Virus record (IMG/VR): IMGVR_UViG_3300047319_000460
Location: 1-33,754 of that record
Origin: a virus
Reading direction: 5' to 3' (one strand)
DNA length: 33,754 bases
Each line of letters begins with the position of its first letter. Position 1 is the first letter of the stretch. Positions 4,011-20,226 of this stretch are shown here, piece by piece. A program made the position numbers and the translations under genes. Below the pieces are notes generated by a model, which worked only from the letters and a program-made list of their open reading frames with translations, was not told where the DNA came from and ran no database searches.

Positions 4011-4533
4011 CATCACCAAGCGGCTGGATAACGTCTGCTCGTCCATCATAATTATTGTCGGCAATATTCTGAAACAACAAACTCTCGCTTGCTCTACGAC
4101 GCACCAGTCCTGGTAACACCTTGCCGCCGCCACGATTCCATTTGTGGAATTCCAAGGCAGCACCGTCGAAATCCTTGGCATTGACCTTCTTCAGCAGAGT
4201 CGAGCTTGCCAGGGCCCCTGAGCCACAGTTGTAGGTGAAACTTGTCAGTGCATCGAACTGCCACTGGGTTAGCTGCACCTTGACTGAACGTCTAACGTCG
4301 CCTTCGAATTTCTTCATGTCGACCAGGAATGCTGCATCGCACTGACGTTGTGACCAGACCATTCCTGGTTTGATCTTGTGCCCATTTTCGGTCGTTGTTC
4401 CCCACCCGATAGTCCAGACATGGGCTGGGCATAGGTAGGATTCGAAGCGGTCAGGGCCACAAGGATGCAGACAGGACTCGAAATGCTTGACGAGATTTGC
4501 TCCAGCCTTTGATAGCGACAGTTCCTCGTTCAT
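3976..4533 (-). CDS. Endolysin, phage-type lysozyme (GH24, muramidase)
   Basis: The 185-residue product cleaves peptidoglycan between MurNAc and GlcNAc to release progeny. It shows the GH24 pattern: a helix ending in the catalytic Glu (NLVKHFES, Glu19), then WTIGWGTT (residues 40-47) for the catalytic loop, then QFDALTSFTYNCGSGAL and GLVRRRASESLLF in the C-terminal lobe. The extra Cys residues near Glu19 (Cys21, Cys25, Cys35) are unusual. No signal peptide or SAR helix is visible, so it should need a holin. It starts 2 bases after the holin-candidate stop, and its 3' end overlaps the convergent exported-protein gene by 35 bases. Confidence 0.92.
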   Translation of the reverse strand: MNEELSLSKAGANLVKHFESCLHPCGPDRFESYLCPAHVWTIGWGTTTENGHKIKPGMVWSQRQCDAAFLVDMKKFEGDVRRSVKVQLTQWQFDALTSFTYNCGSGALASSTLLKKVNAKDFDGAALEFHKWNRGGGKVLPGLVRRRASESLLFQNIADNNYDGRADVIQPLGDAMPQDVDAPKA

Positions 4534-9640: not shown

Positions 9641-9888
9641 AACATCAAACATTGACGGAATGGGATCGGCTTGTTGCACCGTATCTCTCGGTCATCGGCA
9701 TTCGTGCCAAGCACATTCAGAGTGACGCAAAACAGATTGTCAGTTGGGTCACTATGATGCCTGTAGCTCCTGACTTTCCAACAGAAGCTATCGGTCAACT
9801 TGAGCAAGCTCAGAAGGAGGTACAAGAAGCTGCTGATGCAATAAGAAAAGCACTGAGAAACTATGCTGAGAAAGAGAAAGTAACTTAA
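9637..9888 (+). CDS. Hypothetical helical phage protein (GTG start)
   Basis: The start codon is a GTG that overlaps the previous stop (GTGA), so translation is probably coupled. The 83-residue protein begins MKHQTLTEWDRLVAPYLSVIG and ends in a long Glu/Gln/Ala helix (AIGQLEQAQKEVQEAADAIR) likely to form a coiled coil. I do not recognise a family. Its place between the promoter-proximal gene and the 205-residue gene suggests a role in the early operon. Confidence 0.6.
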   Translation: MKHQTLTEWDRLVAPYLSVIGIRAKHIQSDAKQIVSWVTMMPVAPDFPTEAIGQLEQAQKEVQEAADAIRKALRNYAEKEKVT

Positions 9889-9907
9889 CAACGGAGATTG
9901 AAGTCTT

Positions 9908-10525
9908 ATGGCTAAACAAGGCACAGCTAAGGTTATTGTTATCAAGGAGCCGACCAATGGCGGCGAGGAGCCGATTTCCTTCAGCGAGCCATACTCGGTA
10001 GAGGTGACCATCGAGGGAGCAGCGGATCTGATCTTCCATCGCTGGAATGCCGAAGAGGTTGATGCAAAAGGCGCAGCAGCCAAGAACTCCAAGGCGAAGA
10101 AAACCGACAACGTCGAGAGCTATGTCTACCGTAATGAGGAAGGCTACATCTGCCTTCCTGGTTTGTATCTTCGCGGCTCGATCATCAACGCTGCAAAATT
10201 CCGGCAGGATCCACGCTCGCCACGAAAGAGTGCGATGGATCTCTACAAGGCCGGTATCGTCGCAACCACACACCTTGCCAGCATGGGTACCAAGGAGTGG
10301 GATTACCTCGATAAGTGCCGGGTCACTGTCCAACGTCAGGGCATCAACAGAGTCCGTCCAGCCTTCAGGGCTGGCTGGAAGGCGACTATCGAGCTGATGG
10401 TTTTGTTGCCGGAATATATTGATCGAAATATTTTGCGAGAAACTATTGAAAGTGCTGGTAGATTAGTGGGAATCGGTGATCATCGACCAACATTTGGCCG
10501 ATTTGGCATCGTTAATTACGAGTAA
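9908..10525 (+). CDS. Conserved phage protein, possibly RAMP/Cas7-like in fold
   Basis: The 205-residue protein has YSVEVTIEGAADLIFHRW, a variable loop rich in Lys/Ala, EEGYICLPGLYLRGSIINAA, then RPAFRAGWKATIELMVLLPE and the C-terminal AGRLVGIGDHRPTFGRFGIV. The last part is a Gly-rich loop of the G-x-G-x(n)-G-R-F type, and the first is a beta strand with a mid-protein P-x-x-x-L-R-G-S-I-x-x-A helix. I know this pattern from uncharacterised phage proteins. The order resembles ferredoxin-like RAMP proteins such as Cas7, which bind single-stranded nucleic acid; this is a hypothesis only. It sits directly before the hairpin and the GGNNN array. Confidence 0.6.
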   Translation: MAKQGTAKVIVIKEPTNGGEEPISFSEPYSVEVTIEGAADLIFHRWNAEEVDAKGAAAKNSKAKKTDNVESYVYRNEEGYICLPGLYLRGSIINAAKFRQDPRSPRKSAMDLYKAGIVATTHLASMGTKEWDYLDKCRVTVQRQGINRVRPAFRAGWKATIELMVLLPEYIDRNILRETIESAGRLVGIGDHRPTFGRFGIVNYE

Positions 10526-10538
10526 TCTCAATGCTTTA

Positions 10539-10570
10539 CCTAGACCGTTCCAGAAATGGAGCGGTCTAGG
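10539..10570 (+). other. 14-bp RNA hairpin with GAAA tetraloop
   Basis: CCTAGACCGTTCCA (10539-10552) pairs with TGGAGCGGTCTAGG (10557-10570) around GAAA. Thirteen pairs are Watson-Crick and one is G-U in RNA, so the stem is complete only as plus-strand RNA. GAAA is a stable GNRA loop. No T-run follows, so it is not a standard terminator. It lies 13 bases after the stop at 10525 and 10 bases before the GGNNN array. It may stabilise, process or punctuate the transcript. Confidence 0.75.
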
Positions 10571-10580
10571 TTAAGGCTCT

Positions 10581-11212
10581 GGCATGTTCTGGCGCGGTAG
10601 GGTTAGGACTGGCTTGTTTTGGCAAGGTTGGGCATGGCATGGCGACATCGGGCAAGGTGCGGCGCGGCAAGGCATGGCGGGGTTAGGTAGGGCATGGCGA
10701 TATTTGGTTCGGCAAGGCAAGGCTGGGATTGGCTTGGTGAGGTGCGGATTGGTGAGGCATGGCGATCTTTGGAAGGGTGCGGCATGGCGATATCTGGCAA
10801 GGCTTGGCTAGGTAAGGCATGGCGAGGTTGGGCGAGGCATGTCTGCATAGGGCTAGGTTGGGTAGGGACAGGCGAGGTGTGGTGAGGTGTGGCTTGGCCT
10901 CGGGCAGGGCGTGGTCTGGCGTGGTCTGGGATGGTTAGGTGCGGTGAGGCACGGCTAGGTCTGGCGATCTGTGGCGAGGAGCGGCATGGCTGGGTGAGGT
11001 CAGGTCAGGCGTGGAATGGTTGGGTGAGGCGACATCTGGCAAGGTAGGGCAAGGCCGGGTCGGGTGCGGTGTGGCAAGGCATGGCGATCTGGGGCGAGGC
11101 ATGGCTGGGTGAGGTGTGGTCCGGCCAGGAGAGGCATGGCGCGGCGATACAGGGTGCGGAATGGAGAGGCCCGGTTGGGCGGGGCTAGGCATGGCATGGC
11201 ATGGTGAGGTCC
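10581..11212 (+). repeat. Degenerate pentamer array, GGNNN repeated about 126 times
   Basis: GG recurs every five bases on the plus strand for about 630 bases, while the other three positions vary (often CAT, CGA, TGA, TTG, CAA, TAG). The phase is kept throughout, apart from one two-base slip at 10901-10902. A few pentamers lack GG. Eight of these follow GGCGA, at 10646, 10701, 10766, 10791, 10968, 11033, 11088 and 11148, and read CATCG, TATTT, TCTTT, TATCT, TCTGT, CATCT, TCTGG and TACAG. A period of five is incompatible with ordinary coding, and stops occur in the forward frames. It ends six bases before the next ATG, and its last GAGG acts as the ribosome-binding site. Confidence 0.95.
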
Positions 11213-11217
11213 AATAA

Positions 11218-11955
11218 ATGAACGATGCAGCTATCGGGCATAATTCTCCACCAGGAATGATCGAAATTACTGATCAAACGATGAAAGATATTTCTGCTTG
11301 GATGGCAGAAAATCCAGTTATCAATAGTGAATCTTCTAAAGAAGCCAAGCTTTTCCTCGATAGAGGAAAATTAGCTATCCAGGATATGGAAGATGAGCGC
11401 AAAAAAAGAGTTGGACCACTTAATGACGAAGTCAAAGAAATCAACAATTCATACCGACCAGTCGCCGCAAGAATTTCTAAAGTCGTTGATACGCTATCGG
11501 ATCGACTCACGGCTTTTATTAAAGAAGAAAGACGCATTAGAGAAGAAGCAAATCGAGTTGCTGCTGGACTTGCTAGAGAAGCCGAGATCAAAGCGCGTGA
11601 AGCTGAGCGTCTCGAACGTGAAGCAATTGAGTCAGCTAATCACGGAGAACTTGGAGTTGATGTTGCGGCTCATGTCGCAGATGCCGATATTGCCTTCCGT
11701 GACTTCGAGAAATCCCAAAGAGCAGCAGCCCTCACGGAGAAAGAAACCCACGTCAAAATTACCGGCGGCTTCTCACGAGCGGTCAGCCTCAAGACCAAAG
11801 AAACGCTCGTTGTCGTTGACGCACAAGCCGCACTCCAAGAAATGGGAGCCAACGACGAAATCAAGGAAGCCATCCTGAAGCTGGCACGAGAGTATCGCCG
11901 TGCAACCGGAGACCTTCCTCCTGGAGTCGAAGCGTCATACAGGGAAGAAATATGA
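11218..11955 (+). CDS. Coiled-coil phage protein after the array
   Basis: The 245-residue protein begins MNDAAIGHNSPPGMIEITDQ, an opening I associate with alphaproteobacterial phage proteins. It has a long charged coiled coil (about residues 60-150: DRLTAFIKEERRIREEANRV, then AREAEIKAREAERLEREAIE) and a C-terminal globular part (VSLKTKETLVVVDAQAALQ, then EAILKLAREYRRATGDLPPG). The ribosome-binding GAGG is contributed by the last pentamers of the array, eight bases from the ATG. Codon use is more A-rich than its neighbours. The stop overlaps the next start (ATGA). In similar phages such proteins sit beside recombination and single-strand-binding genes; the role is inferred only. Confidence 0.7.
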   Translation: MNDAAIGHNSPPGMIEITDQTMKDISAWMAENPVINSESSKEAKLFLDRGKLAIQDMEDERKKRVGPLNDEVKEINNSYRPVAARISKVVDTLSDRLTAFIKEERRIREEANRVAAGLAREAEIKAREAERLEREAIESANHGELGVDVAAHVADADIAFRDFEKSQRAAALTEKETHVKITGGFSRAVSLKTKETLVVVDAQAALQEMGANDEIKEAILKLAREYRRATGDLPPGVEASYREEI

Positions 11956-12257: not shown

Positions 12258-12802
12258 TGGAACAGACAGTCATCACCGTTGCTGGCATTACGCCTCCGGC
12301 CCCTGGCAAGAAACAGGGCAAGATCATCGATACCAATGGAGGCTCATGGAATGTCTGGGGCGACAAGCTCCAGAACTACCGCATGGGGGTTTCCTATGAA
12401 ATTCAGTACGAAATCAAAGAGTTCAACAATCATAACTTTAATCTCATCAGCACCGCCAATCCAACGAACTCATTATCGCAGCAGTCGACACTGCCATTGC
12501 AGCGGCCACCTAACGCACAATACGTTCCTAATCAGCCAGGGCATCAGACCATGCCAAGCCAAGCGCCACAGGCTTGGCCCGGTCCTACACCAAAGGTGCA
12601 ACTGACAGTCAAGGACGAGATGATCTTCGTCTGCGGCATCATGAACAATTCAATGGCTAATGCCAACGTCAATCCTGTCGAGCTTACCCTCGTTGAGATG
12701 ATTGCCATGGTCAACAAGGCCAAGCAGGCTTGGCGAAACACGTTCGGAAAGTTTCAACAAGCCGACGATATGAACGATGAGTTACCGGATCTTGCTCAAT
12801 GA
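12257..12802 (+). CDS. Possible OB-fold single-strand DNA-binding protein
   Basis: The 181-residue protein opens with a beta-rich domain (VITVAGITPPAPGKKQGKII, DTNGGSWNVWGDKLQNY, VSYEIQYEIKEFNNHNFNLI) whose strand pattern and aromatic residues suit an OB fold. A Pro/Gln-rich linker follows (residues about 75-115), then a helical C-terminal domain (VKDEMIFVCGIMNNSMANAN, ELTLVEMIAMVNKAKQAW) and an acidic end (ADDMNDELPDLAQ). An N-terminal OB fold, flexible linker and acidic tip is the classical layout of single-strand-binding proteins. I infer that role from architecture, not from sequence identity. Confidence 0.5.
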   Translation: MEQTVITVAGITPPAPGKKQGKIIDTNGGSWNVWGDKLQNYRMGVSYEIQYEIKEFNNHNFNLISTANPTNSLSQQSTLPLQRPPNAQYVPNQPGHQTMPSQAPQAWPGPTPKVQLTVKDEMIFVCGIMNNSMANANVNPVELTLVEMIAMVNKAKQAWRNTFGKFQQADDMNDELPDLAQ

Positions 12803-13116
12803 GCAATGAGTTTTCATTCAGCGACGAGTGTCTGAAGGCCAACGAGGAGTGGGTGGATAAGGAGTATGCCGCCCAGCTCCTTGAGGACACCAAGACGCTT
12901 GTCATGGCACAGCGTCAGGCTGCGCTTGGCGAAATGGCTGTCAACAAGGCAGAGCAAACCATCAAGGCCTCTCCTGGCTGGTGGGACTATGTCGTATCCA
13001 TTGTCGATGCCAGGAGAGATGCCAACCTAGCCAAAGTCAGAGCGGAGCATAAAAAAATGCGGTTCTATGAGAATCAGTCCAGAGAAGCTAACGTCAGAGC
13101 GGAGATGAAACTCTAA
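12799..13116 (+). CDS. Hypothetical phage protein, helical
   Basis: The 105-residue protein begins in the previous stop (ATGA) and ends in the next start (TAATG). It is mostly helical and charged (ECLKANEEWVDKEYAAQLLE, then RQAALGEMAVNKAEQTIKAS), with a Trp-rich turn (PGWWDYVVSI) and a final basic helix (AEHKKMRFYENQSREANVRA). The tight coupling to both neighbours supports expression. I do not recognise the family. Confidence 0.65.
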   Translation: MSNEFSFSDECLKANEEWVDKEYAAQLLEDTKTLVMAQRQAALGEMAVNKAEQTIKASPGWWDYVVSIVDARRDANLAKVRAEHKKMRFYENQSREANVRAEMKL

Positions 13117-19716: not shown

Positions 19717-20226
19717 TTAATGAGCCGTTCGCGACAGGCTCGATCCGGCTGTTAACGAGCCGGGATAATAGAGGAATAGCTCGCCTATTTTTGGGAACAT
19801 GCGGCGGAACAGCCTGCACTTGGCTTCGGTTCTGTGATTGGTAACCACCGCAGACATTAAGGGCATCCCGATGATATCGGCTTGGGTCTTCATCCAGCCG
19901 GTGAGTGTCTTGGCGTGGCCGGTCGTTCGGTATTCCGGATCGACAAACACCAGGAAATCCGTCAGGTGCTTGTCGTAAGTGTACCACAGATCAGAGATAC
20001 AGAGGCCGCAGATAGCCTCCAGGCCCCCTTCCCTGCCGATCACACCGATGATGCCTCTGAGGCCGGGGTCGTCCTCAGGGATTGCATCCGGATTGAGGAA
20101 TCTGGTCAGCATCCAGTGCAGCTTGTCCGGAGCCAGGGAGAACTGATCGTTCTCATTGTGGGCTTGCAGGAACAGCCTGAGGCACTCCTGGTAGTCACGC
20201 ATGGTGGCGGCACGGACAATTTCCAT
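19717..20226 (-). CDS. GNAT-family N-acetyltransferase in the virion operon
   Basis: The 169-residue protein has the GNAT layout: an N-terminal strand-helix (MEIVRAATMRDYQECLRLF), a central strand pair (LEAICGLCISDLWYTYDKHL) and motif A, FLVFVDPEYRTTGHAKTLTG, with the acetyl-CoA pyrophosphate loop in a slightly altered form (RTTGHA in place of RGxGxG/A). Phage acetyltransferases are often found between tail and ejection genes, and some modify host proteins. The target is unknown. It starts one base after the stop of the 1234-residue gene. Confidence 0.8.
   Translation of the reverse strand: MEIVRAATMRDYQECLRLFLQAHNENDQFSLAPDKLHWMLTRFLNPDAIPEDDPGLRGIIGVIGREGGLEAICGLCISDLWYTYDKHLTDFLVFVDPEYRTTGHAKTLTGWMKTQADIIGMPLMSAVVTNHRTEAKCRLFRRMFPKIGELFLYYPGSLTAGSSLSRTAH

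Follow-up and report, generated by a model that had tools for sequence, protein, structure and literature searches.

The viral DNA analysed here (the window, 33,754 nucleotides, positions 1 to 33,754 of the IMG/VR record IMGVR_UViG_3300047319_000460) carries a 632-base array of GGYNN pentamers at 10581-11212 that is very probably a VIPR guide array, with the gene directly upstream of it as its vipr gene. VIPR is described in a 2026 preprint (PMC13142463) as a CRISPR-like weapon of phages against rival phages, in which a RAMP-type protein, Vipr, and RNAs that alternate GGY with NN bind double-stranded DNA, and where the guides skip one target base between successive NN pairs. According to that text, Vipr is a RAMP homologue of about 20 kD with an RRM core, the guides hold 9-16 repeats, YNNGG repeats adjoin the Vipr gene, and the systems, which are mostly hosted by viruses or proviruses, typically come with a vap accessory gene. 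The architecture of the arrays differs among types: in type II each guide is followed by a structured 3' tail that does not vary, mention is made of staggered arrays whose guides overlap, and in some arrays hammerhead ribozymes are interspersed. Its authors propose that VIPR is older than CRISPR (PMC13142463). The discovery is only months old, the preprint is the literature we found on it, and the locus in the window arrives independently, from raw sequence. That the element bearing the array is a virus is indicated by its IMG/VR record, by virion structural gene families and by a portal of the SU10 type that the longer record G001 encodes.

The original prediction for this stretch was about 126 pentamers with a single slip of two bases at 10901-10902, and phasing from position 10581 gives precisely this, 64 pentamers, CG and another 62. 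The accompanying statement that GG recurs every five bases was a slight overstatement, since GG starts 114 of the 126 units and is lacking in 12. Pairs of GG at a spacing of five bases number 105. In 1000 shuffles of the array that preserve its dinucleotides they average 31.0 (sd 4.6) and never exceed 45. Sequence of the same composition does thus not give the period, in a comparison that had been set beforehand, and the proposed selection on the GG spacing, as opposed to recent slippage, is borne out. The longest perfect run of GG units is 13, against 8 in the 1000 shuffles and 5 on both strands of the remaining window. Of the 114 GG units, 103 have a pyrimidine (C or T) as their third base, while the fourth and fifth positions have one in only 88 of 228 cases (Fisher p 1.2e-21), and because of this the rule of the array is not GG-NNN but GGY-NN, which is the rule of VIPR guides. 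The NN pair is free; all 16 possible pairs are present, the 114 GG units comprise 35 distinct pentamers, the longest exact repeat inside the array is 18 bases, and Tandem Repeats Finder, run at its default score, misses the array. The description of a varied tract that is no simple repeat was in this respect right, but it missed that the third base is constrained as well.

The array is found again in IMG/VR sequences that evidently come from the same virus. One of them (L129) is identical over 12,615 bases and another (L131) has 1 mismatch in 6,197 bases, both with the array included, and a third (L130), with 1 mismatch in 4,358 bases, extends no further than 92 bases into the array. This recurrence speaks against an assembly accident; the samples are possibly related and constitute weak evidence on the rate of change. 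IMG samples with this virus are 3300046724, 3300046837 and 3300047471. A coding repeat was rejected, as the period of 5 is not a multiple of 3, and the minus-strand reading frames of 81 and 85 aa within the array are taken as chance.

Table 1. Features of the vipr-array locus in the window, and arrays of relatives with matches in other loci
Feature	Position	Strand	Remark
vipr gene, RAMP-type protein (Vipr homologue), 205 aa	9908..10525	+	directly upstream of array
Strong leader hairpin in the interval between vipr and array	10533..10577	+	fold of 10526-10590
GGYNN guide array, first half	10581..10900	+	64 pentamers, 56 with GG
Two-base phase slip (CG)	10901..10902	+	
GGYNN guide array, second half	10903..11212	+	62 pentamers, 58 with GG
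Putative guide segment 1	10591..10645	+	non-GG GTTTT within; end GGCAT GGCAT GGCGA, then CATCG
Putative guide segment 2	10651..10700	+	10 units; end GGCAT GGCGA, then TATTT
Putative guide segment 3	10706..10765	+	12 units; end GGCAT GGCGA, then TCTTT
Putative short segment 4	10771..10790	+	4 units; end GGCAT GGCGA, then TATCT
Putative guide segment 5	10796..10840	+	9 units; end GGCAT, then GTCTG CATAG
Putative guide segment 6	10851..10900	+	10 units; ends at the phase slip
Putative guide segment 7	10903..10967	+	13 units; end GGCGA, then TCTGT
Putative guide segment 8	10973..11032	+	12 units; end GGCGA, then CATCT
Putative guide segment 9	11038..11087	+	10 units; end GGCAT GGCGA, then TCTGG
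Putative guide segment 10	11093..11147	+	11 units; end GGCAT GGCGC GGCGA, then TACAG
Putative guide segment 11	11153..11212	+	12 units; end GGCAT GGCAT GGCAT GGTGA GGTCC
Next gene, 245 aa, phrog_10477 'exonuclease'	11218..11955	+	
Target-matching arrays of relatives	L126:6517-6601, L206:5996-6110, L196:6037-6141	+	guide matches in other VIPR loci

The reading frame of the vipr gene is open over its full length, and its product matches phrog_4652 (E 3e-17). In PDB, the window Vipr by itself finds the Vipr of phage SUSP1 (36pp_D) at E 1.9e-5, a profile of its close relatives (A2) at E 1.8e-11, and a profile of the family (A1, 42 homologues) at E 1.4e-42. The last-mentioned match, annotated 'SUSP1 Vipr protein', is the sole one in PDB at E < 0.1 for the family profile, being one entry with six such chains. 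The identity between the two proteins themselves is limited, 36% over 73 aa. Near its C-terminus the window Vipr has the glycine-rich motif AGRLVGIGDHRPTFGRF, which is conserved in the family. An AlphaFold model of the protein (pLDDT 89.0, pTM 0.80) was compared with known structures, and the best 50 of 732 Foldseek matches were all CRISPR effector entries, chiefly type III-A Csm and type VII complexes, with 6ifl_F at the top (E 1.9e-6); the best match by VIA-align was 8yhe_F (Z 11.6, rmsd 4.2, 159 residues aligned). Judged by these best matches, the predicted fold is of the CRISPR Csm3/Cas7 type. The SUSP1 Vipr structure 36pp was absent among the fold-search matches listed, from a structure library that extends up to 8 April 2026. 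Pfam has no family for the window Vipr and neither NCBIfam nor PADLOC gave a match for it; among the 42 family members these two collections gave weak matches to Cmr6 or Csm3, for 1 member per family.

A DNA-pattern scan of IMG/VR for (GGNNN)x14 found at least 120 stretches, in line with the earlier impression that similar tracts occur in other phages. By an iterated profile search, seeded with the window protein and four phage homologues, a Vipr homologue was detected at 86 of the 120 stretches listed, and in 85 of these 86 an array block lies on the vipr strand; in the last one (L076) the array block is only on the opposite strand. Half of the 34 listed matches without a detectable Vipr (17) have the array at most 800 bases from the end of the sequence, and several others are plain microsatellites. 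A search that started from the protein instead found 33 loci in bacterial genomes (L190-L222) encoding Viprs of the window's clade, and 31 of these have a same-strand array of at least 8 GG units no more than 1.5 kb upstream or 2.5 kb downstream, while no opposite-strand array was found within these distances of any of the 33. When phase and flanking genes were checked for conservation, the flanking vipr gene proved to be conserved. The genomes with the loci L190-L222 are in many cases Phycisphaerales MAGs; others belong to Thermomonas flagellata and to Stenomitos rutilans, the latter with two loci on one contig. Some long arrays had no Vipr in the available sequence, namely L060:3096-3440 and 4089-4313 (+; 69 and 45 GGNNN units), L014:8659-8858 (-; 40 units) and L055:2631-2845 (+; 43 units), and these are candidates for orphan arrays, satellites or arrays with more distant Viprs.

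Between the vipr gene and the array, the 65 bases at 10526-10590 fold at -35.1 kcal/mol (z -6.7), a value that none of 200 shuffles equals, and we infer that this leader hairpin has a role at the 5' end of a guide transcript or in its processing. Inside the array the non-GG pentamers are patterned, as 8 of the 12 come directly after GGCGA (permutation p 0.0003), 5 of them after the full GGCAT GGCGA, and a unit with AT stands at most two units ahead of 7 of the 11 non-GG units that can be scored (p 0.018). Because of this pattern we propose that the array holds about eleven guide segments, mostly of 9-13 units and with GGCAT-GGCGA ends; the short segment 4 is perhaps a remnant, or a piece of a neighbouring segment. 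In 372 blocks of other Vipr loci, AT is found at the second unit from the block end in 74 of 321 GG units compared with 297 of 4162 in the interior, and AA at the third unit from the end in 85 of 326, but at the very last unit AT is present in only 23 of the 372 blocks; as a mark of the guide end AT is not clean. Nor is a non-GG unit in itself sufficient to end a guide, because such units are present inside the target-matched guides of L126 and L206, described below.

No folded tail was seen in the array, of which three stretches were folded, one of them the 3' end, and all behave as shuffles. Because the architecture of VIPR varies between types, we read the folded tail as a trait of some types and not of VIPR as such. 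There are no hammerhead ribozymes between the guides, where the gaps are too small, no non-GG gap within the array being longer than 10 bases, and Rfam at its gathering score finds no family in the window. A scan of 9800-11400 gave no sigma-70-like promoter, and terminator-like sites there number 4 against 0.9 expected, one of which, a weak one at 10586-10609, lies in the first units of the array.

The one-base-skip code was tested with 4626 eight-unit pieces from 434 array blocks, matched against both strands of 158 loci with the arrays masked; earlier samples of the same test comprised 260 and 1400 pieces. Left out of the target statistics were L001-L008 (the window itself), L129-L131 (the same virus), L136-L189 (obtained from the window's seeds or its own virus) and, in the nine-unit tests, also L223-L262, and in both tests pieces with fewer than five different NN pairs. 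Perfect eight-unit matches at skips 0, 1, 2 and 3 amount to 3, 34, 4 and 0, from 3, 6, 3 and 0 distinct blocks, and the excess at skip 1 stems from three guides (L126, L206 and L196). With nine units there are matches for two arrays at skip 1, making 13 array-locus pairs, and none at skips 0, 2 and 3. Thirteen pairs were reached in 0 of 200 shuffles, but the 12 loci matched by the L126 guide are homologous to one another, and their pairs do not count as independent; by distinct arrays, the 2 that match compare with a shuffled mean of 0.27, and 26 of 1000 shuffles reach 2. The single matches of L200 to L103, L055 to L050 and L066 to L089 lie close to chance level, as do those at skips 0 and 2, and none of them was used as evidence.

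The target sites of the three guides are three different ones, all in one gene, which encodes a ResIII/Helicase_C helicase. The guide of L126, a locus whose Vipr is 62% identical to that of the window over 192 aa, fits the NVNVLTTGF codons of 12 loci at all 18 specified bases, whereas in its own locus it does best at NIGVLTTGF, with 15 of 18. The base that this guide skips is the wobble base, which differs among the targets shown. In the same manner the L206 guide fits the codons of TGGGKTPVI in L065 at 18 of 18 bases but its own copy, TGSGKTPLI, at 15 of 18, and the L196 guide fits the codons of KDLGYAVT, on the other strand, at 16 of 16 bases in five loci but reaches at best 12 of 16 in its own locus. 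All three matched guides stop at or just ahead of a GGCAT unit. We give no p value for the shared gene, the GGCAT end or the poorer self match, because they were noticed after the search. The helicase gene is present in 18 of 50 loci of the clade, compared with 1 of 73 other Vipr loci, some loci being short, but in the record of the window's virus no homologue of it was found.

For the guides of the window itself, ten-unit pieces were compared with about 1.2 Mb of loci at skips 0-3, and there was no excess over two shuffles except for the array itself at skip 3. Six exact eight-unit seeds, from six of the about eleven segments, matched 6, 44, 4, 16, 11 and 6 stretches in IMG/VR; one of these seeds includes a possible punctuation unit. 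Among the matches listed (at most 12 per seed in one check) none convincingly extends past the seed, and no gene common to the matches was seen for five of the seeds, with 17 of 44 matches covered for the seed that had 44. One decoded segment resembled a phage terminase motif, but this likeness was dropped when the genes of the seed matches were compared. Ten decoded segments were also compared with the 75.5 kb record of the virus itself; for nine of them at least one of four shuffles does as well or better, and the tenth exceeds its best shuffle by a single base (15 against 14 of 20).

The gene that follows the array possibly encodes a VIPR accessory. Its 245 aa product has no similarity to the SUSP1 gene adjoining vipr, and phmmer gave 0 matches for it at E 1e-4 among the reading frames of 157 other loci. 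The same search with ten other reading frames around the array found no recognisable vap gene; the frame at 12799-13116 has a homologue (in L090) and the remaining nine have none at E 1e-4. Further away in the window, at 19717-20226 (-), there is a match to an acetyltransferase PHROG amid large reading frames, some of which match virion proteins. A longer record of the same virus has genes of the sugar-biosynthesis type (L255:9036-12915, -); one product combines cytidylyltransferase and class-III aminotransferase domains, another is a Polysacc_synt_2 protein and a third is a GFO/IDH/MocA oxidoreductase.

By analogy with the systems of SUSP1 and P. fulva, the plus strand of the locus would be transcribed with the hairpin ahead of the guides. 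Vipr proteins would then align on the RNA, about one per GGYNN, each gripping GGY and leaving the two N bases exposed, and successive NN pairs would read the double-stranded DNA of a rival phage as NN-x-NN-x, where the skipped base is often the wobble base of a codon. The bound complex of Vipr and RNA would, again by analogy, repress the target gene. The array would supply about eleven guide segments for this, most of them of 9-13 units and separated by the patterned non-GG pentamers. Taking all parts together, one can picture a VIPR system without tails but with punctuation, in which about eleven guides share one precursor and its one leader hairpin, and a guide end is marked by GGCAT-GGCGA with a non-GG pentamer in place of a folded tail. 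The guides of the clade would be directed against codon-conserved motifs (Walker A, KDLGYAVT and NVNVLTTGF) in the helicase gene that adjoins VIPR loci of rivals, and as the bearer's own helicase differs there, the wobble-skipping code would reach many rivals and spare self. We put this joint picture forward tentatively and lean somewhat against it as a whole; the punctuation part is graded lower because non-GG units occur within the matched guides of L126 and L206.

The runs of GG with three-base loops are formally compatible also with two-layer G-quadruplexes on the G-rich strand and i-motifs on the opposite one, which would regulate replication or transcription. Quadruplex loops do however not require a five-base phase across 126 units, nor a pyrimidine after GG, and structures of this kind, which were part of the original prediction, fail to foresee that the arrays accompany a Vipr gene on one strand and that the NN bases of relatives match genes of other loci with a gap of one base; we find them extremely unlikely as the explanation. 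Nor do we give more than minimal credence to a scaffold or recombination zone made of the double-stranded DNA, with Chi-like sites or loading sites for a recombinase or a partition protein. It would suit the adjoining gene with its match to a PHROG annotated as exonuclease, and the location of the array in what appears to be an early region, but the search of other loci gave no homologue of that gene, strand and adjacency of the arrays track vipr, the NN bases are free as in the published guide RNAs, and a Chi-like zone, as once suggested, predicts neither GGY, nor a nearby Vipr gene on the same strand, nor the gapped matches. The thought of a scaffold for an oligomeric protein that contacts five nucleotides per subunit was on the other hand close to the published mechanism, apart from the scaffold being RNA.

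Another reading is a decayed or silent VIPR array, homologous in its anatomy but no longer making functional guides. The 12 units without GG, the segment of four units and the phase slip would fit with decay, and so would the lack of tail structure in the stretches folded and of targets found for the window's guides. The phase is nevertheless held over 632 bases with most units intact, the units without GG are patterned after GGCGA, the vipr frame is open throughout, and a relative in the same clade (L017) has GG in 135 of 143 units with no tail seen inside its array, and we judge decay to be improbable.

A VIPR locus of this kind makes several matters accessible to experiment. In the clade with long arrays the guide ends are apparently not set by tails of the SUSP1 type, and the cutting or reading of a long repeat precursor can be tested. 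The guides of the clade, which match the helicase gene of other VIPR loci and their own copies more poorly, give a testable picture of warfare between phages and, through the poorer self match, of a way in which self could escape in the absence of a PAM.

The best-known comparison is the Escherichia phage SUSP1 with its type II VIPR (KT454805, PMC13142463), which likewise is phage-borne. Its RAMP-type Vipr, also of about 200 aa, is encoded next to GGY/NN arrays and on the strand of these. We identified its vipr gene by sequence match and layout; it belongs to a two-gene unit flanked by GGY blocks, with one block upstream and two downstream found by program and a third downstream by eye, a layout that agrees with that in the preprint. 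SUSP1 also has, like the window, an inverted repeat ahead of a guide, which was seen by eye in its sequence. The preprint describes four separate guides, a structured tail and a vap1 gene in SUSP1 (PMC13142463), in contrast to the near-continuous array of 126 units in the window, with one leader hairpin and no tail structure in the stretches that were folded. The closest relatives are found within the clade, where Viprs of IMG/VR loci (L017, L065, L034, L097, L126 and others) and of Phage DSL-LC04 (L132) are 52-62% identical to that of the window, and those of Phycisphaerae genomes (L195-L198, L200, L202-L207) 58-61% identical. Their arrays are on the vipr strand, as in the window, and are long: the longest block has 17-143 units in 16 IMG/VR loci of the clade, whereas in 70 other Vipr loci its median length is 18 units and it never exceeds 60 (Mann-Whitney p 5e-7). 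L010 and DSL-LC04 belong to the same clade but keep, unlike the window, separate guide blocks with other sequence in between, and because of these two the continuous and the separate state both occur in one clade.

With class 1 CRISPR-Cas the window shares the predicted Cas7/Csm3 fold of its Vipr, but no cas families were found among two sets of ten proteins scanned around the array. The arrays are also built differently, with identical repeats and spacers in CRISPR but pentamer units in the window, where Tandem Repeats Finder reported no CRISPR repeats, and a CRISPR guide is contiguous whereas a VIPR guide, by the mechanism published in the preprint (PMC13142463), is gapped. The locus in the window is a further VIPR system, and its continuous, apparently tail-less arrangement may be a variant of the known ones.
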